Assembly: GCF_002723915.1 (NCBI RefSeq)
Contig: NZ_BEWL01000008.1
Coordinates: forward strand, 62,001-126,000
DNA length: 64,000 bases
Source: Gluconobacter albidus
GTDB taxonomy: Bacteria; Pseudomonadota; Alphaproteobacteria; Acetobacterales; Acetobacteraceae
Reading direction: 5' to 3'
The notes under the pieces were generated by a model. That model was not told the DNA's origin. It did no database searches and saw only the letters and a program-made list of their open reading frames with translations. Below, in pieces: positions 16,768 to 64,000 of this stretch. The stretch's first letter is position 1; each line of letters opens with the position of its first letter. The position numbers and the translations under genes are program-made.

Positions 16768-16782
16768 CGCTCCCGACTCTCC

Positions 16783-18927
16783 TTAGAATGCGGCGGTCAG
16801 GTTCATGTTAAAAGACCGCCCCATTCCCGGCAACGGCCCCAGAACACCCGTAGCGTCGTAATCCCCCAGCGAGAGGCCGCCCAGCGGCAGGTAATATCGC
16901 TGGTTCAGCACGTTCGCGAGTTCGGCATTGAGCGTGAAATACCGCCAGCGATAGCTCCCCCCAAGCCCCAGCAGAGCATAGCCGGGCGTGCGGGGCTCGT
17001 TGCGTAGCCAGTCCACGGTGTCCTTGGATTTCACGAGCGTCACCTCGACGCGACCTGTCCAGTTCTCATAGGTCTCGTGCAGCCCGATCAGGCCATTCGC
17101 AGGCATCTGGTGATACAGGCCCGAATGCGTCACCAGATCCACACCGCGCACCCAGTTGATGTTCCCGACCAGCTCGCCCCGTCCATAAGCCGTCCTGTCC
17201 CACAGACGCACGGAGCCTAAGGCATTGATGCCATAGCTCTGGGCGTTGTGATTGACGAAACCCAGCATCGACAGGCCGTTCGAGAAGCTGCTCAACCGTC
17301 GGACGTTAATGTAATTGTGCGTATAGGTATAAAACGGCTGGATCTTCAGATCCCAGTGCTGGGTCGGGTTCGGATCATGCCAGTCCACTGTGACACTGGC
17401 CGTATTCGCGACCTCGGGCGACAGGTTCAGGTTCCCCACATAGCCGTTGCCATCGCCAAACCAGCCGATCATCCGCGTCGCCATGCTGCCCATGCCCCAG
17501 GCATAACGCTCATAGAGGTTTGGCGAGCGCGTCTTGCGGGCATAACCCCCTTCGATGGACAGGCTGTCCAGTGGCTTCCAGCGGCCCGTCGCGGTCACGT
17601 CGAAATTGACGTCCGTGCGCCCGCGTGACGCCTGGTTGAACCGCTCCGCCGCCATCGCATCGGCCATGGACATCATCCCGGTCCAGGAATAGGGCGCGAC
17701 CTTGCCCGTATTCATCATCACCAGATCGTTGCGAAATCCGAGCTGTGTGGAAAAGCGGGGTAGCCACTGCGCGTCCCATTCCGCGAAATGACCCAGCCGG
17801 TCCCGATGGCCGTTATTGATGTTGTGATAGGTGCTCGGCCCCATCATCATGCTGCCCTGAAGCGGCGGCCACCAGTCGTTCAGTCCGTTATGGTCGAAGG
17901 AGCTGCCCAGCTTGAGCGTGTGCTTCAGCCCGAGCGGAATGGTCGCCTTGATCGCATAGGTCGCCGTCCGCGCATCCGTATTCATCGGCATACCCGTGGT
18001 CGCGCTGTGACCGCCCTTGTCCGAAAGCATGTCCATGACATGCGTCACCCGCTGCCAGGAGCCGCGCACATCGAGCGTGCCCCAGTCGAAGTCGCCCTTG
18101 TACTTGCCGTTCACGAAGGTGGAGCGGTTATTGGTCATGTCCATGTACTGGTTGGGAAAGCCCTCATAGGGGATGTCCTGCTGACCGAAGGTCAGGGCCA
18201 GAAGATGGTTGGCCTTCTTCACGCCCAGCGTCACGGCATGGTTGAAGCTCAGATACTCGGTGGACCGCACCTGTTTCCCGCTCCCGCCTGCCTGATAGTC
18301 GCTGGCATGGGAATAGGACGCCGTATAGCGCAGGCTGAACATGTCATTGGCGACCGTCAAAGACCCCGAAGCCCCCGAGCCGCCGCCATTGCTGCGGTAA
18401 TCGCCACGAACATGCCCCGTCACAAGAATATCGCCCGTTTTGGCAAATAGCGGGTCCTTGCGCTCGATCTCCACGGTTCCTCCGATGCTGTCTCCGCCCA
18501 GACTCACGGGCGTGATCCCCGCAATCGCTACCGCACGCGAGACGCTGTCTGGATCGACGTAGGACATGGCGGGATTCATATGGTTCGGACAGGCGGCATC
18601 AATCCGCATCCCGTCCACGAGCGTCGCCACCCGGTCGTCGGCCATACCGTTCAGGACTGGCAGGGCGGAGACACCACCTGCGGAATAGGTGCTGTAACCG
18701 AGTGCATGGTCCAGAAGATGCGCCGTATCCGCGCTGGTCGTCTGGGGCTGGTGTACGCCGATGACACGCAACTGTTCGGCCTTGGCGGATTCGACGGAGT
18801 CCGGCGGAGAGAGGGCATCCTGTGCAGACGCCGCTGAAAAGGTGCTCAGGGTAAAAATGATGGCCGTCAGGCACGGGCGCGCATGACCTGCGTTTGCGCC
18901 CGTACGCATACTGAAAAGGGGGAACAT
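16783..18927 (-). CDS. TonB-dependent receptor, probable copper receptor (OprC/NosA type)
   Basis: About 714 residues from ATG 18927 (GAGG upstream). A signal peptide ends near AASAQ; an LRVIGV TonB box follows. The plug contains RVATLVDGMRIDAACPNHMNP, where the Cys-Pro-Asn-His-Met cluster resembles copper receptors of the OprC/NosA group. The barrel has several Met/His-rich loops (GHSATTGMPMN, WTGMMSMADAM, MMMGPSTYH) suited to soft-metal binding and ends in an aromatic residue (AAF). The upstream His-rich DUF2946-like gene supports a copper role. Copper specificity is inferred; zinc or another soft metal is the alternative. Confidence 0.72.
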   Translation of the reverse strand: MFPLFSMRTGANAGHARPCLTAIIFTLSTFSAASAQDALSPPDSVESAKAEQLRVIGVHQPQTTSADTAHLLDHALGYSTYSAGGVSALPVLNGMADDRVATLVDGMRIDAACPNHMNPAMSYVDPDSVSRAVAIAGITPVSLGGDSIGGTVEIERKDPLFAKTGDILVTGHVRGDYRSNGGGSGASGSLTVANDMFSLRYTASYSHASDYQAGGSGKQVRSTEYLSFNHAVTLGVKKANHLLALTFGQQDIPYEGFPNQYMDMTNNRSTFVNGKYKGDFDWGTLDVRGSWQRVTHVMDMLSDKGGHSATTGMPMNTDARTATYAIKATIPLGLKHTLKLGSSFDHNGLNDWWPPLQGSMMMGPSTYHNINNGHRDRLGHFAEWDAQWLPRFSTQLGFRNDLVMMNTGKVAPYSWTGMMSMADAMAAERFNQASRGRTDVNFDVTATGRWKPLDSLSIEGGYARKTRSPNLYERYAWGMGSMATRMIGWFGDGNGYVGNLNLSPEVANTASVTVDWHDPNPTQHWDLKIQPFYTYTHNYINVRRLSSFSNGLSMLGFVNHNAQSYGINALGSVRLWDRTAYGRGELVGNINWVRGVDLVTHSGLYHQMPANGLIGLHETYENWTGRVEVTLVKSKDTVDWLRNEPRTPGYALLGLGGSYRWRYFTLNAELANVLNQRYYLPLGGLSLGDYDATGVLGPLPGMGRSFNMNLTAAF

Positions 18928-19042
18928 GATCCACATCCTCGACTGATCTGAAATCCAGTCACAGCGGATCACGCCCCGCAGGCCTGTCCCGAAAAAGACA
19001 GACTGCAGGTCCCTTCGTCCTCCGCCATGACCACAATGGGAT

Positions 19043-19477
19043 TCAGAAGAGGCGAGGTGGCCCTCGGGATGGGGGAAGCAGCCGCCAGATCGCGGGAGGC
19101 GCACGCGGCGCACCGGGTGTCTGGCGGATCTGACGTCCTGGGGTCCCACAGGTTGGCAATACAGGCAGGCTGGCCAGAATGACCGCCAGAAGCTGTAACA
19201 GGGGACAAAGCGGGCAGGTGCCGTCATGCGAATGGTGATGATGCTGATGTCCAGCGGTCATGCCGGGCATCGGCCCGGACATGTGCTCCATCATCACCAT
19301 GGGGGAAGGTGCAATGTCGATGCCCGTCAGGCGCTCGATCGTCGCCCGGGGACTTTCTTCGGGATAGGAACATCCTTGAAGAACGAGCTGCCCCAGAAAC
19401 CCCAGAAGAACCACGGCGATGACTGCCAGCGCAGGCAAACCGGAGCGTCGGTTCGAAGGGGGAAAGAGGCGGGACAT
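19043..19477 (-). CDS. DUF2946-like His-rich membrane protein
   Basis: About 144 residues with two hydrophobic segments (about residues 13-33 and 95-112). Between them lies a metal-binding-like stretch: MVMMEHMSGPMPGM, then GHQHHHHSHDGTCPLCPLLQLL. Met-rich and His-rich runs plus a CxxC pair next to a transmembrane helix are typical of DUF2946 proteins, which often sit beside TonB-dependent copper receptors. The Arg/Pro-rich C-terminal tail shows nothing recognisable. The start at 19477 lacks a good ribosome binding site. Role inferred: periplasmic copper binding or sensing alongside the downstream receptor. Confidence 0.55.
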   Translation of the reverse strand: MSRLFPPSNRRSGLPALAVIAVVLLGFLGQLVLQGCSYPEESPRATIERLTGIDIAPSPMVMMEHMSGPMPGMTAGHQHHHHSHDGTCPLCPLLQLLAVILASLPVLPTCGTPGRQIRQTPGAPRAPPAIWRLLPPSRGPPRLF

Positions 19478-19582
19478 GACGCCCGCATCTGGCGCCCGCA
19501 TCCCCTACCGGTCAAGAGCGCGAAATACGTCCCGACCCTATATTTCTGTCTGTTTTCAGCCGATTATAGGGCCCGCATTGCG

Positions 19583-20473
19583 TCAGTGCAGGGATTTCTG
19601 CCGTCCGGTCAGCACATTCCCCGCCGAGGCAGCAGCAATGCACAGTACGCCCATCCAGCGCATTGCGGACAGGGCCTCATGCAGAAACACGAATCCTGAC
19701 AGAGCGCCCAGCATCGGCTCCATGCTCAGCAGGATCCCCAGATCGCGCGGGCTCAGGGTCCGCATCGCCATCATGTCCAGAATATACGGCACCGCCGAAG
19801 AGAGGACCGCCACGCTCAGCGCCGCCCCGCCCTGCCAGGGGTGGGTCAGGACCGTCGGGATCGTCGGGATCAGGCAGGGCAGAAGCAGGATGGCCGCCGT
19901 GCTCATGCCCAGTGTCGTGGCGACGGGTGCGGGGAACATTTTCCCCATCCGCGTGCCGGTCAGGATATAGACCACCCAGCCGCACCCGCTCAGAAGGGCC
20001 GCCGCCACGCCGAACAGGTTGAGCGACGCCAGACCTGCTGTCGGTCCTTCGGGGCGCAGCAGCAGGAACAGCCCCGCAACCACAAGCCCAGCCCAGCACA
20101 GATCCAGCCAGCGGCGGGAGCCGACCAGCGCCAGCGTCAGGGGGCCGGTGAACTCAAGAGCAACGACGACACCCAGAGGCAGCCGGACCAGCGCCACGTA
20201 AAAGCAGAAATTCATGATCGCAACGGCGGCCCCGTAAGGCAGCAGGAGCTTCAGCCGTTCGACCGTCAGCGTACCGCGTGTCGGGCGCCAGATGCACAGC
20301 AGGATCACAGCTGCCAGACAGACGCGCAGCCCCACCATGCCGGTCGGACCGAACAGCGGGAACAGTCCTTTCGCCAGCGTTGCGCCGATCTGAAAGGAGG
20401 AAATTCCCCCGATCAGACATCCGACGGCCTTGAGCTGGCTATGAGACTCCGTGGAGCTGGCCGGTGACGACAC
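19583..20473 (-). CDS. EamA/DMT family transporter (RhtA-like exporter)
   Basis: A 296-residue, ten-helix inner-membrane protein made of two EamA repeats. The wording (TGMVGLRVCLAAVILL, YVALVRLPLGVVVALEFTGPL, LDMMAMRTLSPRDLGILLSMEPMLGALSGFVFLHE) is closest to the RhtA threonine/homoserine exporter branch. Probable role is proton-driven amino acid or metabolite export. The start is GTG at 20473, two bases after the parE stop, so it is likely translated with parE as a co-transcribed passenger. Confidence 0.8.
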   Translation of the reverse strand: MSSPASSTESHSQLKAVGCLIGGISSFQIGATLAKGLFPLFGPTGMVGLRVCLAAVILLCIWRPTRGTLTVERLKLLLPYGAAVAIMNFCFYVALVRLPLGVVVALEFTGPLTLALVGSRRWLDLCWAGLVVAGLFLLLRPEGPTAGLASLNLFGVAAALLSGCGWVVYILTGTRMGKMFPAPVATTLGMSTAAILLLPCLIPTIPTVLTHPWQGGAALSVAVLSSAVPYILDMMAMRTLSPRDLGILLSMEPMLGALSGFVFLHEALSAMRWMGVLCIAAASAGNVLTGRQKSLH

Positions 20474-20475
20474 GC

Positions 20476-22491
20476 TCAGACGTCAAGCTCGTCAACGGAG
20501 CGGGCGTGTTCCTGAATGAAGCGGAACCGCAGCTCCGGCTTGCGGCCCATCAGGCTTTCCACACGCTCGCTGGTCGTCAGACGGTCCTCGGGCGGCGTGA
20601 TGACGCGCAGAAGCGTCCGCCGGGCCGGGTCCATGGTCGTTTCCTTGAGATCCTTCACCGGCATCTCGCCCAGACCCTTGAACCGGGAGACCTCGACCTT
20701 CGCATTGGCCTTGAAATCGGTCTTGATCCGCCGCAGCCGGTCCTGATCGTTCATGGCATAGACCGTCTTTGGTCCATGCGTGATGCGATAGAGCGGAGGC
20801 TGGGCCAGATGCAGATGCCCCTGACGGATCAGTTCGGGCATTTCGCGATAGAAGAACGTCATCAGAAGCGACGCGATATGCGCCCCGTCCACGTCGGCAT
20901 CCGTCATGATGATGACACGACCATAGCGCAGGCGGCTGATATCGAACGACGCCCCGATGCCGCAGCCCAGAGCTTCCGTCAGATCCCGAAGTTCCTGATT
21001 GGCCCGCAGCTTGTCGGTCGTGGCGGAGGCCACGTTGAGGATCTTGCCCCGCAGCGGCAGCACGGCCTGCGTCTCGCGGTCGCGCGCCTGACGGGCGGAC
21101 CCGCCAGCCGATTCGCCTTCCACGAGAAAGAGCTCCGTCTCCGCCGCATTTTCACGCGTGCAGTCCGTCAGCTTGCCCGGCAGACGCAGCTTGCGCGTGG
21201 CGCTCTTGCGGGCCGTATCCTTGACCTCGCGGCGGCGCAGGCGCTCTTCCGCACGCTCCACCATGAAGGCCAGCAGGCTGTCTGCCTGTTGCGGATTACC
21301 GCCGAGCCAGTGGTCCACGCGGTCGCGCAGCGCCCCCTCGACCAGCCGTGAGGCCTCCTGCGAGGTCAGTTTGTCCTTGGTCTGACCCTGGAACTGCGGG
21401 TCGCGCACGAAGACCGAGAGCTTGGCGGCTACGGATCCCAGCACGTCCTCGGCCGAAATCGCAGCAGCCCGCTTGACCTTCCGCTGATCGCCCCAGGCCC
21501 GCAGCCCCTTCACCAGAGCCGCGCGGAACCCGGCTTCATGCGTGCCGCCCTGAGGCGTGGGAATCGTGTTGCAGAACGAGGACAGCGTCGCCGTTCCGCT
21601 CTCGAGGAAAGCCACAGCCCATTCCACGCGCCCACCCGTGCGGCCGTCGGCGGCAACCGGAAGGTCCACGTCTCCTGCCCAGAGCGGTGTCAGCAGATCC
21701 GGATCCGGCCCGAGTTCCGCGGAAAGGGCATCTTCCAGTCCGTTGGGGAATTGGATGGTGGCCTCGACTGGTGTCTCGTCGCCCGCCTTGATGAGGGAGG
21801 GTTCGCATTTCCACTGGATCGTCACCCCCCGGAACAGGGCAGCCTTGGAGCAGCACATCCGGTAGAGCCGGGCCGGGGAGAAATGATGGTTGCCGAAGAT
21901 TTCCGGATCGGGCGTGAACCGCACCGTCGTGCCGCGCCGGTTAGGCGCGTTGCCGACTTCCGCCAGTGGGGCCAGCGAGACACCGCGCATGAAGTCCTGC
22001 CGGTACAGCGTCCTGTCCCGCGCGACCTCGACTTCCAGCTTCTCGGATAGCGCATTGACCACTGAACTGCCTACGCCATGCAGGCCGCCGGAGGTGTCAT
22101 AGGCCTTGCCCGAGAATTTTCCGCCCGCATGCAGCGTGGTGAAAATCACCTCAAGTGCGGATTTTTCTGGAAATTTCGGATGAGGGTCGGTCGGGATGCC
22201 ACGGCCGTTGTCGCGCACCATGAGCGTGCGCGGGCCTTCCAGCCGCACGTCGATGGTGGTGGCATGACCCGCCACCGCTTCGTCCATCGCATTGTCGAGA
22301 ATTTCGGAGGCGAGGTGATGATACGCGGTATCATCCGTCCCGCCGATATACATGCCCGGCCGGCGCCGGACAGGCTCAAGCCCCTCCAGCACCTCGATGT
22401 CGTGGGCACCATATTCCGTATCGACCGGCCCCTTGCGGGACGTTCCGGTCTTGGGTTTGCCTGTCTTGCCTGACTCGAACAGATCGCTCAT
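20476..22491 (-). CDS. parE: DNA topoisomerase IV subunit B
   Basis: A 671-residue type IIA topoisomerase ATPase subunit. It has the GHKL Bergerat fold (EILDNAMDEA, NGRGIP, GLHGVGSSVVNALS) and the TOPRIM domain (LVEGESAGGSARQARD, DADVDGAHI), ending near RFIQEHARSVDELDV. It lacks the long insertion of gammaproteobacterial GyrB, and its LEPVRRRPGMYIGGTDD and AVLPLRGKILNV wording fit ParE. With ParC it decatenates replicated chromosomes. parC is not in the window. Confidence 0.92.
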   Translation of the reverse strand: MSDLFESGKTGKPKTGTSRKGPVDTEYGAHDIEVLEGLEPVRRRPGMYIGGTDDTAYHHLASEILDNAMDEAVAGHATTIDVRLEGPRTLMVRDNGRGIPTDPHPKFPEKSALEVIFTTLHAGGKFSGKAYDTSGGLHGVGSSVVNALSEKLEVEVARDRTLYRQDFMRGVSLAPLAEVGNAPNRRGTTVRFTPDPEIFGNHHFSPARLYRMCCSKAALFRGVTIQWKCEPSLIKAGDETPVEATIQFPNGLEDALSAELGPDPDLLTPLWAGDVDLPVAADGRTGGRVEWAVAFLESGTATLSSFCNTIPTPQGGTHEAGFRAALVKGLRAWGDQRKVKRAAAISAEDVLGSVAAKLSVFVRDPQFQGQTKDKLTSQEASRLVEGALRDRVDHWLGGNPQQADSLLAFMVERAEERLRRREVKDTARKSATRKLRLPGKLTDCTRENAAETELFLVEGESAGGSARQARDRETQAVLPLRGKILNVASATTDKLRANQELRDLTEALGCGIGASFDISRLRYGRVIIMTDADVDGAHIASLLMTFFYREMPELIRQGHLHLAQPPLYRITHGPKTVYAMNDQDRLRRIKTDFKANAKVEVSRFKGLGEMPVKDLKETTMDPARRTLLRVITPPEDRLTTSERVESLMGRKPELRFRFIQEHARSVDELDV

Positions 22492-52190: not shown

Positions 52191-52859
52191 ATGAAGAGCT
52201 ACGCCGCACAGCAGCGCAAGCCGACAGACTACATTGTCGCGATCGTCGTGGCCGTGCTGGCTATGGGCGCTGTGATCTATGCGCTCATGAGTGGTGCTGT
52301 GAGCAAGCTGGTCCAGGAAAAGCCGCCTATCAAGACGGAAGTAATCAAGGAACAGCCCAAGCCACCGCCGCCACCGCCGCCACCGCCGCCGCCGCAGATG
52401 GAGCAGCCGCCGCCGCCGTTTATTCCGCCGCCGAAGATCTCCGTGCCGCCGCCGCCCAAGGCGATCCAGCGCGTGACCCACGCCAAGCCGCCGCATCCGG
52501 TGCCGCCCAGCCCGACCCCGTCGCCAGAGCCCGTTCCGGCTCCGCCGCAGGGCCCGCCAGCTGACGCAGTGCCAGATCATCAGGCAGGCGCGCGGCCGAT
52601 CAACGGTGCACAGGCTGTCTATCCGGACGAGGCCATGGAAGAAAACCGCGAAGGTCACGTGACCGCATCGTGTGACATTCTTCCGACAGGCAAGACGGCG
52701 AACTGCACCATCACCAGTTCAAGCGGTGGTCATGAGTTCGTGGAAAGTGCGCTCGACTTCCTTCGTCGGGCCCGTTACCAGCCCGCCGTTGTCAATGGCG
52801 TTCCGGTAATTGAACATCACCACGTCCTGCACATCGACTTCACGATGGGCGACGACTGA
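52191..52859 (+). CDS. tonB: TonB energy transducer
   Basis: A 222-residue protein; AGAAGG lies eight bases before the ATG. One N-terminal transmembrane helix (about 14-33) anchors it in the inner membrane. A Pro-rich spacer (about 50-125), including eleven consecutive prolines, spans the periplasm. The C-terminal TonB domain has YPDEAMEENREGHVTASCDI, ESALDFLRRARYQPA and HHHVLHIDF, with a Cys pair. It transmits proton-motive energy to outer-membrane receptors, two of which are in this window. The SxxH-type helix motif of E. coli TonB is not obvious. Confidence 0.9.
   Translation: MKSYAAQQRKPTDYIVAIVVAVLAMGAVIYALMSGAVSKLVQEKPPIKTEVIKEQPKPPPPPPPPPPPQMEQPPPPFIPPPKISVPPPPKAIQRVTHAKPPHPVPPSPTPSPEPVPAPPQGPPADAVPDHQAGARPINGAQAVYPDEAMEENREGHVTASCDILPTGKTANCTITSSSGGHEFVESALDFLRRARYQPAVVNGVPVIEHHHVLHIDFTMGDD
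52362..52394 (+). repeat. CCA-CCG-CCG codon repeat in tonB
   Basis: Three copies of the nonanucleotide CCACCGCCG plus two CCG codons encode eleven prolines in a row. In-frame length change by slippage would alter the periplasmic reach of TonB without breaking the frame. Confidence 0.75.
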
Positions 52860-52885
52860 TCTTTCGACTGCCATCAAACAGAATT

Positions 52886-52917
52886 GCCCTGTCAGGATCT
52901 TCAGAACCTGACAGGGC
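52886..52917 (+). other. Intercistronic hairpin tonB/exbB
   Basis: GCCCTGTCAGG and CCTGACAGGGC form a perfect 11-bp stem with a ten-base loop. No T-tract follows, so it looks like an mRNA stabiliser or weak attenuator rather than a full terminator. Confidence 0.6.
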
Positions 52918-52999
52918 TCAGAAAAGGGCCGGTCTCCATATGGCCGACACCCCACTAAAAGCTCCGGAAACGGGCATCGATAACGAGGATATGGAGTTC

Positions 53000-54106
53000 A
53001 TGACCAGACTGTTCCGCCTTCCTGCCCTTGCCGTTCCGACGAAGGCGCGTGCCGTCCGGGCCAGCGCACTGGCTCTGACGCTGGCCCTGGCTTCCGGTGC
53101 AGTTGCACCGGCCGTCGCTTTCGCCCAGCCGGCTCCTGCCGACCAGAGCGCTCCCGCAGCGGCTCCGGTTGACCCCTCCGCCAATCCGGCAACCCCGACG
53201 ACGTCCGCCGATCCGGCCGGCGCCCCGGCTGCCGCCGCTCCGAACGATGCGGGCGCTCCTGCTGCTCCCGCCACCGCTCCGACCGACAGCGCCGCTCCGG
53301 CAACGGCTCCGGCCGACCAGTCCCCCGCAGCGGCTGCAACGCCGGGCGAGGGCGCAACCGCGACGCCCGAAGCTCCTGCTCCGCAGGGCAACCCGTATGG
53401 CCTCGGCGCTCTGTGGGCCAATGGTGACGCGATTGCCCGTGGCGTTCTGATCATCATGGTGATCATGTCCGCTGGCACCTGGATCATCATGGTCATGAAA
53501 TTCCTGGAGCAGGGCCGTCTGTTCGCCGCCTCCAAGGAAGCTGCCCGCGAGTTCTGGACCAAGCCGTCCGTTCAGCAGGGTGCTGCATCCCTGAAGGCGT
53601 CTTCTCCGTTCCGCTATATCGCTGAGACGGGCATCGTCGCCGCCGAGCATCACGAAGGCTCCATGCGTGACTCGATCGACCTGCCGTCCTGGACCGAAAT
53701 GTCCATCTCGCGCTCGGTCGACACCATCAACACCCGCATGCAGGGTGGTCTCGCCTTCCTCGGTACGGTGGGTTCCACGTCGCCGTTCGTCGGTCTGTTC
53801 GGTACGGTCTGGGGTATCTATCACGCTCTGACGGCCATCGGCATCTCTGGTCAGGCGTCCATCGACAAGGTTGCAGGCCCGGTTGGTGAATCCCTCATCA
53901 TGACGGCCATCGGTCTTGCCACCGCTGTTCCGGCCGTGCTGGGTTACAACCTGCTCGTTCGCCGCAACAAGGGTGCCATGGATCGCGTCCGCAACTTCGC
54001 GGCCGACATCCAGTCCGTCCTGATCGGCGGCTTCCGTCACGGCGTCAGCCCGGAACAGGGCAGCATGGCTGTTCCGACCACCATCACCACCAGCGAGCGG
54101 ATCTGA
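53000..54106 (+). CDS. exbB: ExbB-like proton channel (MotA/TolQ/ExbB family) with long N-terminal extension
   Basis: About 368 residues from ATG 53000 (GAGG 11 bases upstream; ATG 52991 and 52940 are in-frame alternatives). A cleavable signal ends near VAFAQ. It is followed by an unusual 90-residue Ala/Pro/Thr-rich stretch, then the ExbB core: NGDAIARGVLIIMVIMSAGTW, the cytoplasmic loop, GLAFLGTVGSTSPFVGLFGTVWGI and ESLIMTAIGLATAVPAVLGYN. With ExbD it forms the proton-driven motor for TonB. Gene order and the core motifs support ExbB rather than MotA or TolQ. Confidence 0.88.
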   Translation: MTRLFRLPALAVPTKARAVRASALALTLALASGAVAPAVAFAQPAPADQSAPAAAPVDPSANPATPTTSADPAGAPAAAAPNDAGAPAAPATAPTDSAAPATAPADQSPAAAATPGEGATATPEAPAPQGNPYGLGALWANGDAIARGVLIIMVIMSAGTWIIMVMKFLEQGRLFAASKEAAREFWTKPSVQQGAASLKASSPFRYIAETGIVAAEHHEGSMRDSIDLPSWTEMSISRSVDTINTRMQGGLAFLGTVGSTSPFVGLFGTVWGIYHALTAIGISGQASIDKVAGPVGESLIMTAIGLATAVPAVLGYNLLVRRNKGAMDRVRNFAADIQSVLIGGFRHGVSPEQGSMAVPTTITTSERI

Positions 54107-54110
54107 TCCT

Positions 54111-54536
54111 ATGGGAATGAACGTCGGAGGAGGCGGCGGTGACGACGAGGTGGTGTCGGCAATCAACACCACCCCCCTCGTCGACGTCATGCTGGTGCTG
54201 CTGATCATCTTTCTGATCACCATCCCGGTCGCCACACACTCGGTGAAGGTCAAGCTGCCGGTCGATGCGAATACGCCTACCCAGACTAGGAAGGGCAACA
54301 TCGTTCTGGCAGTAAATTCAAACGGCCAGGTGTTCTGGGACACGACGCCGGTTGCGAACCACACTGACCTGCTGAACCGTCTCGTTGAGGTGGCAAAGCA
54401 GAAGCCCCAGCCGCAGATCCAGATCCGCGGTGATCAGGCTGCCAAGTATCTGGCAGTCGGCCAGGTGGTCGCGACCTGCCAGGAAGCTGGCATCGCCCAC
54501 GTGGACTTCATTACCGAGCAGCCTCACTCGAACTGA
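54111..54536 (+). CDS. exbD1: ExbD biopolymer transport protein (first copy)
   Basis: A 141-residue protein with one transmembrane helix carrying the proton-binding Asp in INTTPLVDVMLVLLIIFLI, followed by a periplasmic domain (GNIVLAVNSNGQVFWD, IQIRGDQAAKYLAVGQVVATCQEAGI). It partners ExbB in the TonB motor. It begins four bases after the exbB stop. A second, different exbD follows 72 bases later. Confidence 0.92.
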   Translation: MGMNVGGGGGDDEVVSAINTTPLVDVMLVLLIIFLITIPVATHSVKVKLPVDANTPTQTRKGNIVLAVNSNGQVFWDTTPVANHTDLLNRLVEVAKQKPQPQIQIRGDQAAKYLAVGQVVATCQEAGIAHVDFITEQPHSN

Positions 54537-54542
54537 GGTCGT

Positions 54543-54572
54543 GTCGGGCCGTTCCGGACAGGACGGCCCGAC
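54543..54572 (+). other. Intercistronic hairpin exbD1/exbD2
   Basis: GTCGGGCCGT and ACGGCCCGAC form a perfect 10-bp stem with a ten-base loop, again without a following T-tract. It is the second such element in this operon. Confidence 0.6.
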
Positions 54573-54608
54573 AAAGCTTTCACGTCACCTTTTTGGAGAA
54601 CCGCCGTC

Positions 54609-55043
54609 ATGGGCATGAGCGTCGGATCTGACAGCACGCACGAAGACGAAGGCATTGTCGATATCAACACCACGCCGTTGATCGACGTGATGCTGGTGCT
54701 GCTGATCATGCTGATCATCACCATTCCGCTTCAGACACACTCGGTGGCGATCGATCTGCCTCAGGGCAATCCTCCCCCATCGACCGAACAACCCAAACTC
54801 GTGACCGTCAGCATCGGCTACGACAACAGCATTTCCTGGAACAACGAGCCGATTACGTCAGAGGCTTCTCTCCAGGCTCATTTTCAGGCCGCAGCAGCAC
54901 TGCCGGACCAGCCTGAAATGCATATCCACCCGGATCGTCTTGCGGACTACAAGACCGTGGCGCATGTTATGGCGGATGCACAGCGTCTCGGCATGACCAA
55001 GCTGGGAATTGTCGGTCTGGATCAGTTCATGGAAGGACAGTAA
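54609..55043 (+). CDS. exbD2: ExbD biopolymer transport protein (second copy)
   Basis: A 144-residue ExbD with DINTTPLIDVMLVLLIMLIIT (proton-site Asp) and a periplasmic part containing LVTVSIGYDNSISWNNEP and MHIHPDRLADYKTVAHVMADAQRLGM. It shares the N-terminal design of exbD1 but diverges in the periplasmic domain, so the two are not recent duplicates. Paired exbD genes in a tonB-exbB operon are known from Xanthomonas and may give the motor receptor-specific variants. AGAA-type ribosome binding site upstream. Confidence 0.92.
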   Translation: MGMSVGSDSTHEDEGIVDINTTPLIDVMLVLLIMLIITIPLQTHSVAIDLPQGNPPPSTEQPKLVTVSIGYDNSISWNNEPITSEASLQAHFQAAAALPDQPEMHIHPDRLADYKTVAHVMADAQRLGMTKLGIVGLDQFMEGQ

Positions 55044-58307: not shown

Positions 58308-58320
58308 TAATTGGCAATTA
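58308..58320 (+). promoter_or_regulatory. Candidate LysR-type (T-N11-A) operator
   Basis: TAATTGGCAATTA is a perfect 6-1-6 inverted repeat with the T-N11-A form of LysR-family sites. It is 29 bp before the AtzG/HpxX-like gene, in a 53-bp spacer. A LysR regulator is encoded at 62723-63607 in the same cluster. The link is inferred. Confidence 0.45.
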
Positions 58321-58348
58321 TCATTTTCTTCGCAAAACCGGAGTTCGT

Positions 58349-58531
58349 ATGATGACAGATCCCCATGACACTGAAATCGCGGTGCTCGCCACTGCGAACG
58401 GGCTGGTCATTCCGGTCGAGTTCCATGCAGGCGTGCGCAGCAATCTGGATCTTCTGCGCAGTTATGGTGCGCTGATCGAAGGGCTGGAACTGCCTGATCG
58501 CCTCGAGCCCGCATTCCGGTACGAGCCATGA
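58349..58531 (+). CDS. DUF4089/AtzG-like amidase accessory subunit (HpxX-like)
   Basis: A 60-residue protein; GGAG lies five bases before the ATG. It reads VIPVEFHAGVRSNLDLLRSYGALIEGLELPDRLEPAF, the compact helical pattern of DUF4089 proteins. AtzG, a GatC-like member, forms a heterotetramer with the amidase AtzE; HpxX is the corresponding small gene in the Klebsiella hpx cluster. The gene overlaps the next, an AtzE-type amidase, by four bases (ATGA), as expected for an obligate subunit pair. Easily missed because of its size. Confidence 0.78.
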   Translation: MMTDPHDTEIAVLATANGLVIPVEFHAGVRSNLDLLRSYGALIEGLELPDRLEPAFRYEP

Positions 58532-59862
58532 GCGGCCTTCAGCAGCGCACCGTCGCGCTCGCCGCCAGCGTCCGCAAGGGCGAGATTTCCGCCCGCGAAC
58601 TTGCGGTGAAGGTTCTGGCCGATATTGAAAGCCGGGACGGGGCCTTTGGCTGTGTCACGCGCCTTCTGATGCAGCGTGCGCTGGAAGCGGCCGAGCGGGT
58701 GGACCGTCTTGTGCTTCAGGGGCAGGACCCCGGACCGCTCGCGGGTGTGCCTTTCGGCATCAAGGATCTGTTCGATGTCCGTGGAGAGATCACGACGGCG
58801 GGGTCCAGGGTCCTCGCAAATGATCCGCCCGCCACGCAGGATGCGGTTCTGGTCGCGCATATGATCGCGGCCGGGGCCATCCCCGTTGCCCTGACGAACA
58901 TGGACGAATTCGCCTACGGGTTCGCCACGATCAATGCGCATTACGGCAATACCCGCAATCCCCATGCGCCCGACCGCCTGGCGGGAGGTTCCTCGGGTGG
59001 TTCGGCGGCGGGTGTGGCGGCGCGGCTGTTTTCCATCGGGCTGGGGTCCGATACGAATGGCTCAATCCGCGTTCCGTCCTCGCTTTGCGGTATCTGGGGC
59101 CTTCGGGCGACGCAGGGGCTCCTGTCGACCGAAGGCAGTTACCCGTTCGTGCCGAGTCTCGATACGGTCGGCCCCTTTGCGGACAGTGCAGGCGGGCTGA
59201 AAGCCTGTTTTGAGGCCCTCAGCGCAAAGGCGCTTCCGGCTGTGGAAGCGGACAGCCTGCGGATTGCCCGGCTTGGCGGCTGGTTCGGTGAAAACATGTC
59301 TCCTCCGATGCAGACGGCCATCGACAGGCTCTCGATGGCGCTGGGGGCGACGGATGTGGTCGAACTGCCGGAGGTGGCGCGGGCCCGGGCAGCAGCTTTT
59401 GTCATCAGTGCGTCCGAAGGGGCAGGGCAGCATCTCGGGCGGCTGCGGACGCGGGCCGCGGAATACGATCCCGCCGTGCGCGACCGCCTTCTGGCCGGTG
59501 CGCTTCTGCCCTCCACGCTCGTTTTTCAGGCCCATCGCCTGCGGCACTGGTTCCGGGACCGGATGCATGAGGCGTTTGCAAAGACCGACATCCTGCTGGC
59601 TCCGGCGCTTGTCGGGGAAGCGCCGCGCTTCGATCAGCCCGAAATCGAGATCGGTGGCAGGATGGTCTCCGCCCGCGCCAATCTGGGACTGTATACGCAG
59701 CCGCTGACGCTGGCTGGTTTCCCGGTTCTGACGGTTCCGATGGCGGTTCCGGGCCTGCCGCTCGGCGCGCAGCTCATCGCGCGTCCGGGGCGCGAGGACC
59801 AGCTTTTTGCGTTGGCGGAAAAGCTGGAAACGGACGGGCTGGCCGAAGCCCGTCTGGTCTGA
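58528..59862 (+). CDS. AtzE-family amidase (HpxY-like)
   Basis: A 444-residue amidase-signature enzyme with the Ser-cisSer-Lys triad: Lys79 in PFGIKDLF, the cis-Ser in GGSSGGS (155-156), and the nucleophile Ser179 in DTNGSIRVP. The AtzE group includes 1-carboxybiuret hydrolase; HpxY is the homologue in the Klebsiella purine-nitrogen cluster, with no settled function. No GatA-type partner GatB is nearby. It probably deamidates a small urea- or oxamate-like compound in the cytoplasm. It is convergent with the symporter gene at one-base distance. Confidence 0.8.
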   Translation: MSGLQQRTVALAASVRKGEISARELAVKVLADIESRDGAFGCVTRLLMQRALEAAERVDRLVLQGQDPGPLAGVPFGIKDLFDVRGEITTAGSRVLANDPPATQDAVLVAHMIAAGAIPVALTNMDEFAYGFATINAHYGNTRNPHAPDRLAGGSSGGSAAGVAARLFSIGLGSDTNGSIRVPSSLCGIWGLRATQGLLSTEGSYPFVPSLDTVGPFADSAGGLKACFEALSAKALPAVEADSLRIARLGGWFGENMSPPMQTAIDRLSMALGATDVVELPEVARARAAAFVISASEGAGQHLGRLRTRAAEYDPAVRDRLLAGALLPSTLVFQAHRLRHWFRDRMHEAFAKTDILLAPALVGEAPRFDQPEIEIGGRMVSARANLGLYTQPLTLAGFPVLTVPMAVPGLPLGAQLIARPGREDQLFALAEKLETDGLAEARLV

Positions 59863-59863
59863 C

Positions 59864-61126
59864 TCAGGGCTGTTTCAGCGCCTCGGCCATGGCGGCATGG
59901 TCGAGGCGTTTTTCCCACGCGGCGATCAGGACCGGCGCCACGCAGTTACCGGCGAAATTGCCTACAGCCCGGGCGATCCCCACAAACCAGTCCACGGCCA
60001 GCAGCATGACCAGACTGCCGGGTGGAATGGAGGGAACGCTGGCCAGCGTCGCCGCCAGAACAACGATCGCAAAGCCCGGAATTCCGTGGGCGCCCTTGGA
60101 CGTGATCAGTGCCGTCACCAGCAGGGTTGCGATCTGCCAGACCGTCAGATGCGTCCCGGTGGCATTGGCCAGAAAAATGACGGACAGGCCCAGATAGATC
60201 GACAGCGCATCCAGATTGAGCGAATACCCCGCAGGCACCACAATTCCGACGACCTGACGTTCGACGCCCAGCTTTTCGAGCTTGGTCATGAGGCTGGGCA
60301 GAACCGAATCGGACGCTGTGGTCGTGGCGACAATCAGCAGTTCTTCACGGAAATATCGTGCAAATCGCAGCGGGTTTACACCTGCGATCCGAAGGGCTCC
60401 CCCGAGCGCGCAGACGACAAATGCGCTGACCAGCAGGAAATACAGGATCGTAAATCCGGCCAGATGGCCGATTGTTCCGAGGCCATATCGTGCCGTGGTC
60501 GTCACCATTGCTCCGAAGACGCCCAGCGGAGCCACGCGGATGATAAGGCCCATCATGCGTGAAAACAGGTCGGACACGCTTTCGATCAGCCGGACCAGCG
60601 GCAGGCCCCGGTCTCCCATGCCGCTCAGGCAGCATCCGACAAAAATCGCGAAAACAAGGATCTGAAGCACATTGCCCTGCGCAAAGGCTTCGGCCGGGGT
60701 GTGCGGGACGAGCGAGAGCAGGAAGCCGCTGAAGCCTTCCGCGCGCAGGTTCTGGGCATGGCCGCCATAGGACGCGATCATCCGGGCGTCGCTCGCGGTG
60801 GGAACGAAGCCCACGCCCTGTCCGATTCCCAGCCCCATCGCCACCACGACCGCCACGACAAGCGCCACGGTGGTCATGAGTTCGAAATAGAGCATCGCGC
60901 ATCCGCCAAGACGCCCTACCGTCTTCAGGGAGCCCGCGCCCAGAATGCCGAGCGTGACGATACAGAACAGCAGCGGTCCGACCGCCATGATGATGAGGCG
61001 CATGAACAGTGCTGTCATCCAGCCCACGTCATCCACAAGGAAAGGGCAGAACAGCCCGGCGCCAAGGCCCAGAACCGTCGCCAGCACGACCTGTGCGAAC
61101 AGGCTTTCCGCAAAATACTTTACCAT
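59864..61126 (-). CDS. Dicarboxylate/amino acid:cation symporter (DAACS family)
   Basis: A 420-residue transporter with eight helices and two re-entrant loops: TASDSVLPSLMTKLEKLG (HP1 serine-rich loop), VVPAGYSLNLDALSIYLG (TM7 signature) and SKGAHGIPGFAIVVLAATL (HP2). DctA and GltP import dicarboxylates or acidic amino acids with Na+ or H+. It overlaps the end of the HpxW-like gene by seven bases, so in this cluster it is the likely importer of an anionic nitrogen compound such as oxamate, oxalurate or allantoate. That substrate is an inference. Confidence 0.82.
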   Translation of the reverse strand: MVKYFAESLFAQVVLATVLGLGAGLFCPFLVDDVGWMTALFMRLIIMAVGPLLFCIVTLGILGAGSLKTVGRLGGCAMLYFELMTTVALVVAVVVAMGLGIGQGVGFVPTASDARMIASYGGHAQNLRAEGFSGFLLSLVPHTPAEAFAQGNVLQILVFAIFVGCCLSGMGDRGLPLVRLIESVSDLFSRMMGLIIRVAPLGVFGAMVTTTARYGLGTIGHLAGFTILYFLLVSAFVVCALGGALRIAGVNPLRFARYFREELLIVATTTASDSVLPSLMTKLEKLGVERQVVGIVVPAGYSLNLDALSIYLGLSVIFLANATGTHLTVWQIATLLVTALITSKGAHGIPGFAIVVLAATLASVPSIPPGSLVMLLAVDWFVGIARAVGNFAGNCVAPVLIAAWEKRLDHAAMAEALKQP

Positions 61127-62712
61127 GCTGCAACAGCTCCGTCGCTCCGGGGGTCGGTCGCACCTTCGAGCCGTCCGTTCTCATGACGGACGAGCGCACC
61201 GGCGTGACCCATGATGATGGACTGGTCTTCAAGCGCCTCGACGACGTGCCCGGCCGTTTCAAGCTGCGACATCACATCCGGGCTGAAGCCGGGCTCCACC
61301 TTGAGCGACAGGCTCTCTTCCCCCCATGTTCGTCCGAGCAGCCAGCGGGGTCGGCGGATGGCCTCCTGAAGCGGAACGCCGTGGCGGACGTGACGGCTGA
61401 AGACCGCCGCCTGTGTCTGGGGCTGCCCTTCGCCGCCCATGGTGCCGTAAACCATCGTGCGTCCGTCGCGGAGCCGGGCCGCGGCCGGATTGAGCGTATG
61501 AAACGGCTTGGCGCCGGGTCGCAGGATGTTCCAGCCCGAATGGGCCAGACGGAAAGACGAGCCGCGATTCTGCCAGAACAATCCGCTCTGCGGCAGCATT
61601 ACGCCGGAGCCGAACTCGAAATACAGGCTCTGGATCATGCTGACGGCCACGCCATTGCGGTCGATCGCGCCCATCCAGGTCGTGTCGCCCCACTGCGTCT
61701 GTTCCGTCCAGGGCATGGCATGAGTCATGGAAATCCGGGCGGTCATCGCCTCCAGCCGTGCCGGATCGGCGAGCAGGCTCCGGGCCAGCGCCTCGGAATG
61801 TTCGCTGCCATCCGTGTGTCTGTTGCGATAGAGAAACGACTGTTTGGTCGCCTCGACCAGCCCGTGGATGTGCGAAAAGCTCTCCGGCCCGTTGTCGCGG
61901 CTCAGATGATCCGAGAGCGCAAGGATTAGAAGCGATGCCACGCCCTGTGTGGGAGGCGCGGTGTTGTAGAGAGTGCCATCGCTCGTCTGGGCCTGAAGCG
62001 GTTCCTTGACCTCCGCCCGATGGGCCAGAAGATCCAGCGACCGGACCGGGCTGCCCGCCGCCGCCAGATCCGCCGCCAGACTGCGGGCGAGCGGGCCGTT
62101 ATAGAAGCTCCGCAAGCCGTCCCGGTTCAGCATCCGCAGCGTTTGCGCCAGTTCCGGGGATTTGCGGATGCTTCCTGCCGTCCAGGGTTTGCCTTCAGGG
62201 AAGCAGATCCGCGCCAGTGTCGGGTCCGACATCAGTTCGTGCTGTTTCTGCGCGAGCAGGGCGCCTTCGCTTTCGGAAACCACGCGGCCATGTTCGGCGT
62301 AATGGATGGCGTCGCGGAGCAGACGGTCCAGCGGCAGGGGGTCGCGCAGTTCGGCGCTCAGTTCCAGCGCGGTTTCCCAGCCCGAAACCGTGCCCGCGAC
62401 CGTATTGGCTGCAAGGCCGCCGCGCCAGGGAATGACGGTGTGCCCGGCTTCGGTATAGATCGCGTGTTCGGCACCCATCGCCAGCGCTCCGCAGGCGTCA
62501 ATCGCCACGGTGCGGCCGTCCGGATGGCAGATCAGCCAGAACGCATCGCCGCCCAGCCCCGTCATGTGCGGATACACCACGGCCAGCGTGGATGCCGTGG
62601 CGACCACGGCCTCGATGGCCGTGCCGCCTTCGCGCAGGACATCCAGCCCCGCCTGACTGGCCAGATGGTGGGGCGACGTCACCATTCCGCCAAGAGCGTT
62701 GGGTGTGAGCAT
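61120..62712 (-). CDS. Gamma-glutamyltransferase-family amidohydrolase (HpxW/oxamate amidohydrolase-like)
   Basis: About 530 residues from ATG 62712 (AGGA upstream). It is an Ntn-hydrolase of the GGT family: GGMVTSPHHLASQAGLDVLREGG, VVYPHMTGLGGD, and the processing site GDTTWMGAIDRNG, whose first Thr (Thr344) would become the N-terminal nucleophile. The T-x-W wording at this site instead of TTH resembles Klebsiella HpxW, shown to hydrolyse oxamate to oxalate and ammonia, rather than true glutathione hydrolases. No signal peptide is visible, so it is cytoplasmic, which also argues against classic periplasmic GGT. It lies ten bases after lysR and overlaps the symporter gene. Confidence 0.78.
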   Translation of the reverse strand: MLTPNALGGMVTSPHHLASQAGLDVLREGGTAIEAVVATASTLAVVYPHMTGLGGDAFWLICHPDGRTVAIDACGALAMGAEHAIYTEAGHTVIPWRGGLAANTVAGTVSGWETALELSAELRDPLPLDRLLRDAIHYAEHGRVVSESEGALLAQKQHELMSDPTLARICFPEGKPWTAGSIRKSPELAQTLRMLNRDGLRSFYNGPLARSLAADLAAAGSPVRSLDLLAHRAEVKEPLQAQTSDGTLYNTAPPTQGVASLLILALSDHLSRDNGPESFSHIHGLVEATKQSFLYRNRHTDGSEHSEALARSLLADPARLEAMTARISMTHAMPWTEQTQWGDTTWMGAIDRNGVAVSMIQSLYFEFGSGVMLPQSGLFWQNRGSSFRLAHSGWNILRPGAKPFHTLNPAAARLRDGRTMVYGTMGGEGQPQTQAAVFSRHVRHGVPLQEAIRRPRWLLGRTWGEESLSLKVEPGFSPDVMSQLETAGHVVEALEDQSIIMGHAGALVRHENGRLEGATDPRSDGAVAAW

Positions 62713-62722
62713 GGTTTCGTCC

Positions 62723-63607
62723 TTAAACTGGGAGGAGTTCGGGCTGAAGGCGCGGGACATGCGCGCACAGCGTCCGGATCAGCAGGTCTTCGGGGCCCTG
62801 CGCGGTCTGATGGCGGGTGGAGGCGATGAATTCCACCTGAGGCATGTCCGGCAGAAGGCCCGGGGCGCAATGCGGCAGATGTTCCACGTTTCGCAGAAAC
62901 GCAGGCTGCGGGGTGACGCCATATCCCGCCCGGACAGCGGCCAGAAGCGCCCCGAGGCTGCCGCTGGTAAAGGCCAGATGCCACGCCCTTCCGCTCTTGT
63001 TGAGCGTCTCGATCGCCAGTCTGCGCGTGACGCTGCCATCTGGAAATGTGACGAGCGGAATGGACTGTTCGGCCGGAAATTCGGTACCGGCGGGGGCATA
63101 CCAGCGCATGTCTTCGGTCCAGAGTTTCTGGCCGCGTGTTTCGGTCGTGCGCCGCATTCCGCACCAGACATCCAGCTCCCCCTGTTCCAGAAGATGCGCC
63201 AGATGAGCCGACAGCCCCACGGTCAGCGTGATCTGGAGGGAGGGGTGGGAGGCGCGGAATGTGCCGAGAATTTCGGGAAAGCGCGTCAGGAGCAGGTCTT
63301 CCGTCACACCCAGCCGGATCGTCCCGCGCGGCGCTTCCTGCCGGAAGCGGGACAGGATGCTGTCCTCGCACTGCAGAAGCTGCCGGGCCAGACCGATCAG
63401 CGCCATGCCGTCTTCGGTCAGACGCACGCTTTTGGTGCTGCGGGCCAGCAGGCGCGTGCCAAGCTGCTCCTCCAGCCGGCTGACATGCTGGCTGATGGTG
63501 GACTGGCTCACCCTCTGGCTCTGCGCGGCTGACGTGAAATGCAGCGTCTCCGCGACGGCGAGAAAGGATTGCAGATGGAACGGATCGAGATGCATCTGAT
63601 CTTTCAT
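62723..63607 (-). CDS. LysR-family transcriptional regulator
   Basis: About 294 residues from ATG 63607. The N-terminal winged helix-turn-helix (FLAVAETLHFTSAAQSQRVSQSTISQHVSRLEEQLG) is followed by a substrate-binding domain (PRGTIRLGVTEDLLL, LPDMPQVEFIAS). I prefer this start because an upstream ATG (63625) lies inside an inverted repeat that may be its operator. It is divergent from the allantoate-amidohydrolase-type gene and leads the minus-strand run with the HpxW-like enzyme and the symporter. It probably activates the cluster in response to a pathway metabolite. Confidence 0.88.
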   Translation of the reverse strand: MKDQMHLDPFHLQSFLAVAETLHFTSAAQSQRVSQSTISQHVSRLEEQLGTRLLARSTKSVRLTEDGMALIGLARQLLQCEDSILSRFRQEAPRGTIRLGVTEDLLLTRFPEILGTFRASHPSLQITLTVGLSAHLAHLLEQGELDVWCGMRRTTETRGQKLWTEDMRWYAPAGTEFPAEQSIPLVTFPDGSVTRRLAIETLNKSGRAWHLAFTSGSLGALLAAVRAGYGVTPQPAFLRNVEHLPHCAPGLLPDMPQVEFIASTRHQTAQGPEDLLIRTLCAHVPRLQPELLPV

Positions 63608-63608
63608 G

Positions 63609-63634
63609 CCAATATGTGGGACCATATTTATTGG
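63609..63634 (+). promoter_or_regulatory. Inverted repeat in the divergent lysR promoter region
   Basis: CCAATATG and CATATTTATTGG form an imperfect palindrome (two-base insertion in the right arm) just upstream of the LysR start. LysR regulators usually bind such sites between themselves and a divergent target. Candidate only. Confidence 0.45.
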
Positions 63635-63709
63635 TAGGTCAACTTGATCTGATTCCGTTATGAGCGCAAAGTTCCCCTGCTTGACCCATCACCCCGGACA
63701 GGAGCCCCC

Positions 63710-64000
63710 ATGACAGCCCACGGAGCCCGCGCCGTAGAGCGGTGCCGTATTCTCGCGGATGGTCCTTTCAGCGAGACGCCGGGCAGTCTGTTCCGATTCT
63801 GGCTCGGCCCTGCCTATCAGCGCACCCTCACACAGGTCGCAGAATGGATGGAAGAGGCCGGTCTGGGTACCCGTCTGGATGCTGCCGGCAGCCTTGTCGG
63901 ACGCTACGAGGGGCTCGTGCCCGACGCTCCGGCCCTGATGATCGGCTCGCATCTCGATACCGTACGCAATGGCGGCGCGTTTGATGGCAATCTGGGCGTC
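63710..64000 (+). CDS. M20-family amidohydrolase, allantoate amidohydrolase/N-carbamoyl-amino-acid hydrolase type (cut by window edge)
   Basis: The first 97 codons are present; AGGAG lies five bases before the ATG. The N-terminus (FSETPGSLFRFWLGPAYQ, VAEWMEEAGLGTRLDAAGSLVGRYEG) and the metal-binding ALMIGSHLDTVRNGGAFDGNLGV (His81, Asp92) are diagnostic of the AllC/HyuC/beta-ureidopropionase branch. Next to HpxW-, HpxX- and HpxY-like genes, allantoate amidohydrolase (HpxK-like) is the best guess. The C-terminal residues that decide between allantoate and N-carbamoyl amino acids are outside the window. Confidence 0.75.
   Translation, partial: MTAHGARAVERCRILADGPFSETPGSLFRFWLGPAYQRTLTQVAEWMEEAGLGTRLDAAGSLVGRYEGLVPDAPALMIGSHLDTVRNGGAFDGNLGV

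Follow-up and report, generated by a model that had tools for sequence, protein, structure and literature searches.

Gluconobacter gene cluster probably encoding the lower half, from allantoate to oxalate, of a purine-nitrogen pathway of the Hpx type

The locus in Gluconobacter albidus

The far end of a 64,000-nucleotide stretch of Gluconobacter albidus DNA (C8:62001-126000 in a 3.29-Mb genome of 49 contigs; referred to as the window) carries genes related to the Hpx ureide system of Klebsiella. A first-pass annotation had read them as an Hpx-like cluster by which an acetic acid bacterium draws nitrogen from ureides or oxamate, a core claim that our analysis supports, and the six genes it named were all correctly placed and called, as judged by open reading frames (ORFs), Pfam, and NCBIfam. 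The features are listed here in window coordinates unless a contig is given.

58349..58531, + strand: hpxX/atzG-like amidase partner of 60 amino acids (Pfam AtzG-like); likely extent inside a longer, 97-codon frame
58528..59862, + strand: hpxY/AtzE-family amidase (NF006631, TIGR02715), proposed oxalurate amidohydrolase subunit
59864..61126, - strand: DAACS/SDF (DctA-like) symporter (Pfam SDF), candidate ureide-anion carrier
61120..62712, - strand (ORF opens at 62760): hpxW-type oxamate amidohydrolase of the GGT family (5hft match, residues)
62723..63625, - strand: LysR-type regulator, divergent from hpxK (Pfam HTH_1 and LysR_substrate; Gluconobacter synteny)
63637..63651, no strand: 15-mer GGTCAACTTGATCTG, candidate LysR site, identical across Gluconobacter loci
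63710..64000, + strand: hpxK, allantoate amidohydrolase (M20), first 97 of 411 codons (NF006775 at full length)
C8:126942-128174, directly after hpxK and beyond the window: HpxJ-type aminotransferase (PDB match 3nnk)
C8:128562-129491, after a gap beyond hpxJ: GhrA-like dehydrogenase

The first-pass annotation had proposed extending the search past the window's edge, and the cluster does continue there: hpxK runs on to C8:126945 (stretch L003) and is followed by an aminotransferase gene of the ureidoglycine-glyoxylate type. ATGA stop/start overlaps join atzG to atzE and hpxK to hpxJ, the hpxW and symporter frames overlap by 7 bases, and the starts of relatives favor the ATG at 62712 over 62760 for hpxW. 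The AtzE proteins of G. cerevisiae and G. cadivus are 98% identical to the window's, and the whole gene order recurs identically in G. cerevisiae (L004), with proteins 95-98% identical; since this conserved order is accompanied by stop/start overlaps, a chance arrangement is excluded.

The GhrA-like gene was considered as a pathway component and rejected, as it lies near hpxJ in just 13 of 21 Gluconobacter loci. In a 14th locus (L016), only a piece of 36 residues is found, at a greater distance, and the gene's sole match outside Gluconobacter is 29% identical (L070). In L016, from G. aidae, IS66 transposase-like genes separate hpxJ from the ghrA piece (16436-21332), and no DAACS gene was found at that locus. 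Upstream of the cluster, TonB-, ExbB-, and two ExbD-like genes occupy 52191-55043 of the window, as read from ORF translations only.

Family identities and the genes on other contigs

The best PDB match of the aminotransferase is the Klebsiella ureidoglycine-glyoxylate aminotransferase (3nnk, 488 bits), ahead of B. subtilis PucG (3isl, 407 bits) and of the next aminotransferase (265 bits). Its neighbor, the M20 protein, scores 589 bits at full length against the NCBIfam allantoate amidohydrolase model NF006775 (cut-off, 479), which is also passed by the M20 proteins of Klebsiella (523), Zymomonas (590), Sphingomonas L042 (575), and Tanticharoenia L034 (536) and failed by a less closely related one encoded in the vicinity of the Asaia cluster L025 (328). 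The first-pass annotation had named a best match to N-carbamoyl-amino-acid hydrolases as evidence against its reading. An N-carbamoyl-L-amino-acid hydrolase is indeed the best PDB match (3n5f, 298 bits; E. coli AllC, 188), but Klebsiella HpxK, used as a control, gives the same order (265 versus 192 bits), and the allantoate cut-off is passed. On these matches, the two proteins are HpxJ and HpxK of the Klebsiella type, and we take their reactions to be those of these named relatives.

The GGT-family protein is closest in the PDB to HpxW (5hft; 267 and 265 bits for its two chains), with E. coli GGT at 156 bits, in line with the HpxW-type call of the first-pass annotation. The gamma-glutamyl-binding residues of E. 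coli GGT are R114, N411, Q430, D433, S462, and S463. In an alignment, all six positions are replaced, four of the six changes being identical to HpxW, and the catalytic Thr is kept. These replacements, together with a TIGR00066 score below the cut-off (306 versus 358), speak against a glutathione hydrolase or gamma-glutamyltranspeptidase. The gene can accordingly be designated, by family, an HpxW-type oxamate amidohydrolase, which presumably converts oxamate to oxalate and ammonium as its named relatives do.

The amidase pair consists of AtzE, which exceeds the cut-offs of NF006631 (594 versus 461 bits) and TIGR02715 (532 bits), and the small ORF, which scores 25.7 bits against Pfam AtzG-like (cut-off, 24). 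Homologues of the small protein lie directly 5' of AtzE in related loci. The two may correspond to the HpxX-HpxY pair of Klebsiella, although the small protein is only 9% identical to Klebsiella HpxX and AtzE is not sister to Klebsiella HpxY in the tree described below. Its predicted structure comprises two helices; a fold search with this model returned no match at an E value of 0.001 or better, so that the GatC or transamidosome chains making up six of its seven non-significant matches lend little support. The protein is probably non-catalytic.

HpxZ/AtzH, which the first-pass annotation had reported as absent, is missing only from the window locus. The single AtzH-like gene of the genome lies unlinked on contig C13 (C13:12242-12610), and its product exceeds the HpxZ equivalog cut-off (NF033625, 160 versus 135 bits), so an HpxZ can be assigned to this strain by model match. 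Exactly one HpxZ copy was found in 25 of 26 Gluconobacter genomes; the exception, G162, also yielded no OHCU decarboxylase. Within these 25, hpxZ stands directly 5' of atzG-atzE in 11; the other 14, like the present genome, have it next to one and the same ABC-2 permease gene, which indicates that hpxZ and atzGE were separated in part of the genus and that hpxZ was retained. Nine residues of the AtzH substrate pocket are listed in the excerpt of PMC6219798 consulted; the HpxZ of this genome has all nine, as does Klebsiella HpxZ, and the Zymomonas protein has eight. The atzH gene of the triazine plasmid pADP-1 (L100, 48807-49196) is labeled "oxalurate catabolism protein HpxZ" in its record, so that the name alone does not imply oxalurate use.

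Contig C3 carries genes for the preceding, urate half: those for HIU hydrolase, OHCU decarboxylase, and PuuE allantoinase (542 bits against a cut-off of 425), together with genes for a flavin monooxygenase, a guanine-deaminase-like amidohydrolase, and a xanthine/urate permease. The flavin monooxygenase (L093, 11250-12818) has no NCBIfam match near a cut-off and is 41-45% identical to its counterpart in the urate runs of Pseudoxanthomonas and Sphingomonas. Excerpts of two papers bear on this step: HpyO of Xanthomonas is described as a urate oxidase that depends on FAD and NAD(P)H (PMC4562309), and a uricase gene is reported in all genomes of the prevalent Gluconobacter species studied (PMC8358223). 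The C3 flavin enzyme is a candidate HpyO-type enzyme that would oxidize urate. At the other end of the route, contig C13 encodes a bicupin oxalate decarboxylase (514 bits; cut-off, 254), which exceeds the cut-off in 6 of the 26 Gluconobacter genomes, and oxalyl-CoA decarboxylase reached its cut-off in none of the 26; possible fates of the oxalate are export and, in this strain, decarboxylation.

The symporter matches Pfam SDF (320 bits). Identity as the C4-dicarboxylate carrier DctA was rejected, as it scores below both NCBIfam DctA cut-offs (460 versus 570 and 415 versus 513 bits) and its pocket motifs, which are those of the Zymomonas ureide-cluster and Komagataeibacter DAACS proteins, are unlike E. 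coli DctA. The motif is no proof of a ureide cargo, since a Paracoccus protein labeled DctA is close to these proteins too and has no ureide gene within 4 kb on either side. Of the 21 Gluconobacter loci (L003-L021, L036, and L051), 14 have the gene, and within that set of compared loci it was seen in none of the other lineages. The import by the symporter that the first-pass annotation proposed was not borne out, and we say only that it may import a ureide anion. Three Komagataeibacter plasmids were matched, and on the two read (L130 and L131) a DAACS gene (about 64% identical to the window's) is paired with an Ldh-family (AllD-family) dehydrogenase gene, next to LysR and TonB receptor genes. 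The one dehydrogenase scored matched ureidoglycolate dehydrogenase best, below the cut-off (208 versus 356); a ureidoglycolate uptake set is possible.

All 21 Gluconobacter loci, which include many from close relatives, have an identical GGTCAACTTGATCTG between lysR and hpxK. It contains the palindrome TCAACTTGA (63639-63647), whose pattern occurs once in the window and was not found in the C13 stretch L086 or the C3 stretch L093; in Saccharibacter L023, TCAAGTTGA lies between hpxK and hpxW. As about one such palindrome is expected by chance per window (64000/4^8), the case for a LysR site rests on place and conservation.

Gene linkage across genomes and the AtzE tree

Were these genes parts of one pathway, they would be expected to occur together in related genomes, as the first-pass annotation had pointed out. 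Among 150 Acetobacteraceae genomes, HpxW was found in 20 (E values up to 1e-100), HpxJ in 26 (up to 1e-60), and OHCU decarboxylase in 52; AtzE exceeded its cut-off in 77, and AtzH was present in 88 (87 over the cut-off). HpxW and HpxJ coincided in 19 genomes (3.5 expected), HpxJ and OHCU decarboxylase in 24 (9.0 expected), and AtzE and OHCU decarboxylase in 46 (26.7 expected). HpxW is thus accompanied by HpxJ in 19 of its 20 genomes, by AtzE in 19 (in 18 of the 20 at a distance of 12 kb or less), and by OHCU decarboxylase in 18, and the expected co-occurrence was found.

Much or all of the route forms a single gene run in Asaia, Tanticharoenia, Sphingomonas, and Pseudoxanthomonas. Tanticharoenia (L034), an Acetobacter metagenome-assembled genome (L035), and Sphingomonas join AtzE, HpxW, HpxK, HpxJ, PuuE, OHCU decarboxylase, HIU hydrolase, and the flavin enzyme in one run, which in Sphingomonas has AtzH inside it, whereas the present Gluconobacter genome has the same enzymes split over C8, C13, and C3. 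Asaia and Acidomonas combine the flavin enzyme, AtzG, AtzE, HpxW, PuuE, OHCU decarboxylase, and HIU hydrolase, with no HpxJ within the stretch.

The Klebsiella hpxJK/hpxWXYZ/hpxU cluster (L099) resembles the gene set of this Gluconobacter genome in HpxJ (56% identity), HpxK (44%), HpxY (44%), and HpxZ (48%), in HpxW by way of 5hft and its residues, and in having a gene for a small protein before that for the amidase. It differs in having the RpiR regulator HpxU and an ABC importer where the window has LysR and DAACS, and in this Gluconobacter genome HpxZ lies on another contig and AtzE on another tree branch. Treating regulator and importer as variable accessory parts, we regard the window cluster as a variant rather than the same system. 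The Klebsiella record (K. pneumoniae CP125156.1, 5.37 Mb) is filed as a plasmid, although it must be a chromosome; hpxW is missing from its gene table and seems to have a broken frame. The Zymomonas mobilis plasmid pZM33 (L097) places LysR, porin, DctA, HpxK, HpxJ, HpxZ, HpxX, and HpxY genes side by side. It shares with the Gluconobacter genome LysR, DAACS (49% identical), HpxK (50%), HpxJ (59%), AtzE (53%), and HpxZ (50%) and differs in its linked HpxZ, its plasmid location, its added porin, and the lack of a listed HpxW in the 17 kb read.

To place the amidase, we built a midpoint-rooted AtzE tree of 52 rows, with ureide labels assigned by us from gene neighborhoods. The window AtzE lies in a 35-row clade (100/99) in which HpxW or HpxJ adjoins all 35 rows. 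Klebsiella HpxY groups with the triazine AtzE of pADP-1 (95/93) inside a separate 12-row group (99/92), which also includes two ureide-linked rows (L038 and L060) and eight unlabeled ones: L079-L082, with about 3.4 kb of neighborhood read for each; L043, L044, and L056, without a ureide gene except AtzH in L056; and an Acidithiobacillus row adjoined by xanthine-dehydrogenase-family, HpxZ, and GGT genes. Given the midpoint root and a Klebsiella branch flagged for its length (0.83, compared with 0.63 for triazine AtzE), the order of ureide and triazine use is only suggested. The Acidithiobacillus row comes from A. caldus plasmid p1 (L098, 285-11985), where xanthine dehydrogenase-family genes, ureidoglycolate lyase, a ring-opening amidohydrolase, and XdhC form one run with DUF4089 (AtzG-like), AtzE, HpxZ, and GGT genes, an odd mix that recalls both purine and cyanuric-acid genes.

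Proposed route, alternatives, and meaning

Family identities and gene linkage are read directly from the sequence; from them we conclude, with good though not full confidence, that this region represents the half from allantoate to oxalate of an Hpx-type purine-nitrogen pathway whose genes lie at three separate places in the genome. The C3 enzymes would lead from urate to allantoate by means of the permease, the flavin monooxygenase (maybe the urate hydroxylase), HIU hydrolase, OHCU decarboxylase, and PuuE. HpxK would then convert allantoate to ureidoglycine, HpxJ would transaminate ureidoglycine with glyoxylate to oxalurate and glycine, and HpxW would split oxamate into oxalate and ammonium. 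The divergent LysR protein would control the cluster, and the symporter might bring in a ureide anion.

With oxalurate as the expected product of HpxJ and oxamate as the expected substrate of HpxW, a step between the two is needed, and HpxX, HpxY, and HpxZ, otherwise the unassigned genes, are allotted to it by elimination. According to the excerpt of PMC6219798, AtzEG deaminates 1-carboxybiuret, and AtzH is thought to remove the N-carboxylate afterwards. Oxalurate resembles 1-carboxybiuret, and by this analogy the step probably follows AtzEG/AtzH-like chemistry: HpxX-HpxY would deaminate the terminal carbamoyl group of oxalurate to give N-carboxyoxamate, and HpxZ would then take off the N-carboxylate, giving oxamate, just as AtzH presumably acts on 1,3-dicarboxyurea. 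The excerpt of PMC12625717 names HpxY an oxalurate amidohydrolase in its text and an oxamate carbamoyltransferase in a legend, so that the assignment is unsettled rather than new. In the literature searched, the term carboxyoxamate was not found, and HpxX with oxalurate gave nothing for most terms.

Several observations weigh against this reading. The small AtzG-like protein is matched by no NCBIfam model, and its Pfam score is close to the cut-off. The window AtzE is nearly as similar to the triazine AtzE of pADP-1 (43%) as to its Klebsiella counterpart HpxY (44%), with which it does not group in the tree; nor can AtzE alone serve as a marker of the pathway, since it occurs in 77 of 150 genomes and HpxJ in 26. 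The HpxZ pocket residues are those of triazine AtzH and therefore cannot tell the substrates apart, and HpxZ shows no significant association with either HpxW (14 of 20, P = 0.33) or HpxJ (19 of 26, P = 0.13). A limited number of candidates was scored in each of the 150 genomes, and the co-occurrence P values ignore shared ancestry. Finally, uricases of families PF01014 and PF06181 were searched for in the genome and not found.

Alternatively, the cluster might mainly scavenge external allantoate or another ureide anion through the DAACS symporter instead of completing a breakdown of urate that starts in the same cell. On Zymomonas pZM33, DAACS is paired with hpxKJZXY, and the 17 kb read there lists neither urate genes nor HpxW; Saccharibacter L023 has PuuE, HpxJ, HpxK, HpxW, AtzG, and AtzE without OHCU decarboxylase or HIU hydrolase on a 12.9-kb contig; genome G101 has HpxW, HpxJ, and AtzE and no OHCU match; and the DAACS and hpxW frames overlap. 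Yet a third of the Gluconobacter loci and all Asaia, Sphingomonas, and Pseudoxanthomonas loci lack the symporter, and OHCU decarboxylase occurs in 25 of 26 Gluconobacter genomes, which makes this alternative rather unlikely as the main function, although both readings can be true together.

It is much less probable that AtzG/AtzE is a carboxybiuret-type amidase for triazine or biuret use that stands beside ureide genes by happenstance. The AtzE-family name and score and the identity to pADP-1 AtzE would fit, and the Pseudomonas ADP atzDGEHF cyanuric acid operon (L100) likewise has a small AtzG-like partner, AtzE, and an AtzH-like protein with the same nine pocket residues. In this Gluconobacter genome, however, ureide genes adjoin and the AtzH-like gene is unlinked; HpxW or HpxJ accompanies every row of the window's AtzE clade; and a tblastn search of the window, L003, L086, and L093 (neither AtzD nor AtzF was sought elsewhere in the genome) found no AtzD (best E value, 3.0) and, with the first 206 residues of AtzF, nothing better than an E value of 1 except AtzE itself. 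That the M20 protein and the amidase serve hydantoin or N-carbamoyl-amino-acid use beside an ordinary gamma-glutamyl hydrolase is hardly credible, for although the best PDB match of the M20 protein and the sub-threshold TIGR00066 match point that way, Klebsiella HpxK shares that PDB match, the allantoate cut-off is passed, the GGT substrate residues are lost in the manner of HpxW, and HpxJ lies next door.

Returning to the Hpx-type pathway, it is tempting to speculate further that HpxXYZ is a two-step oxalurate decarbamoylase, that the triazine AtzGEH enzymes are a re-use of this purine-ureide module, and that the linked DAACS subfamily is a ureide-anion symporter. The re-use is suggested by the grouping of pADP-1 AtzE with Klebsiella HpxY and by the uniformly ureide-linked lineage of the window AtzE; we put this extension forward tentatively, as somewhat more doubtful than not. 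Excerpts of earlier papers already describe clusters of ggt, atzG, atzE, and atzH with a transaminase and an allantoate amidohydrolase in Enterobacteriaceae (PMC6219798) and the confusion of hpxW with ggt in alpha- and gammaproteobacteria (PMC3560190). In the literature searched, nothing was found on allantoate with Acetobacteraceae and uric acid. New here are the reach and rearrangement of the pathway in acetic acid bacteria, the retention of HpxZ apart from its partners, the DAACS association, and the tree placement.

For acetic acid bacteria of fruit and insects, the proposed pathway would add nearly all the genes for a route leading from uric acid or allantoin to ammonium; uric acid is the primary nitrogen waste of Drosophila, according to the excerpt of PMC8358223. 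As a genus amenable to experiment, Gluconobacter would also offer many natural HpxXYZ sets with which to examine the conversion of oxalurate to oxamate, the least settled step, and to ask if the well-known triazine AtzEGH enzymes originated in purine breakdown.

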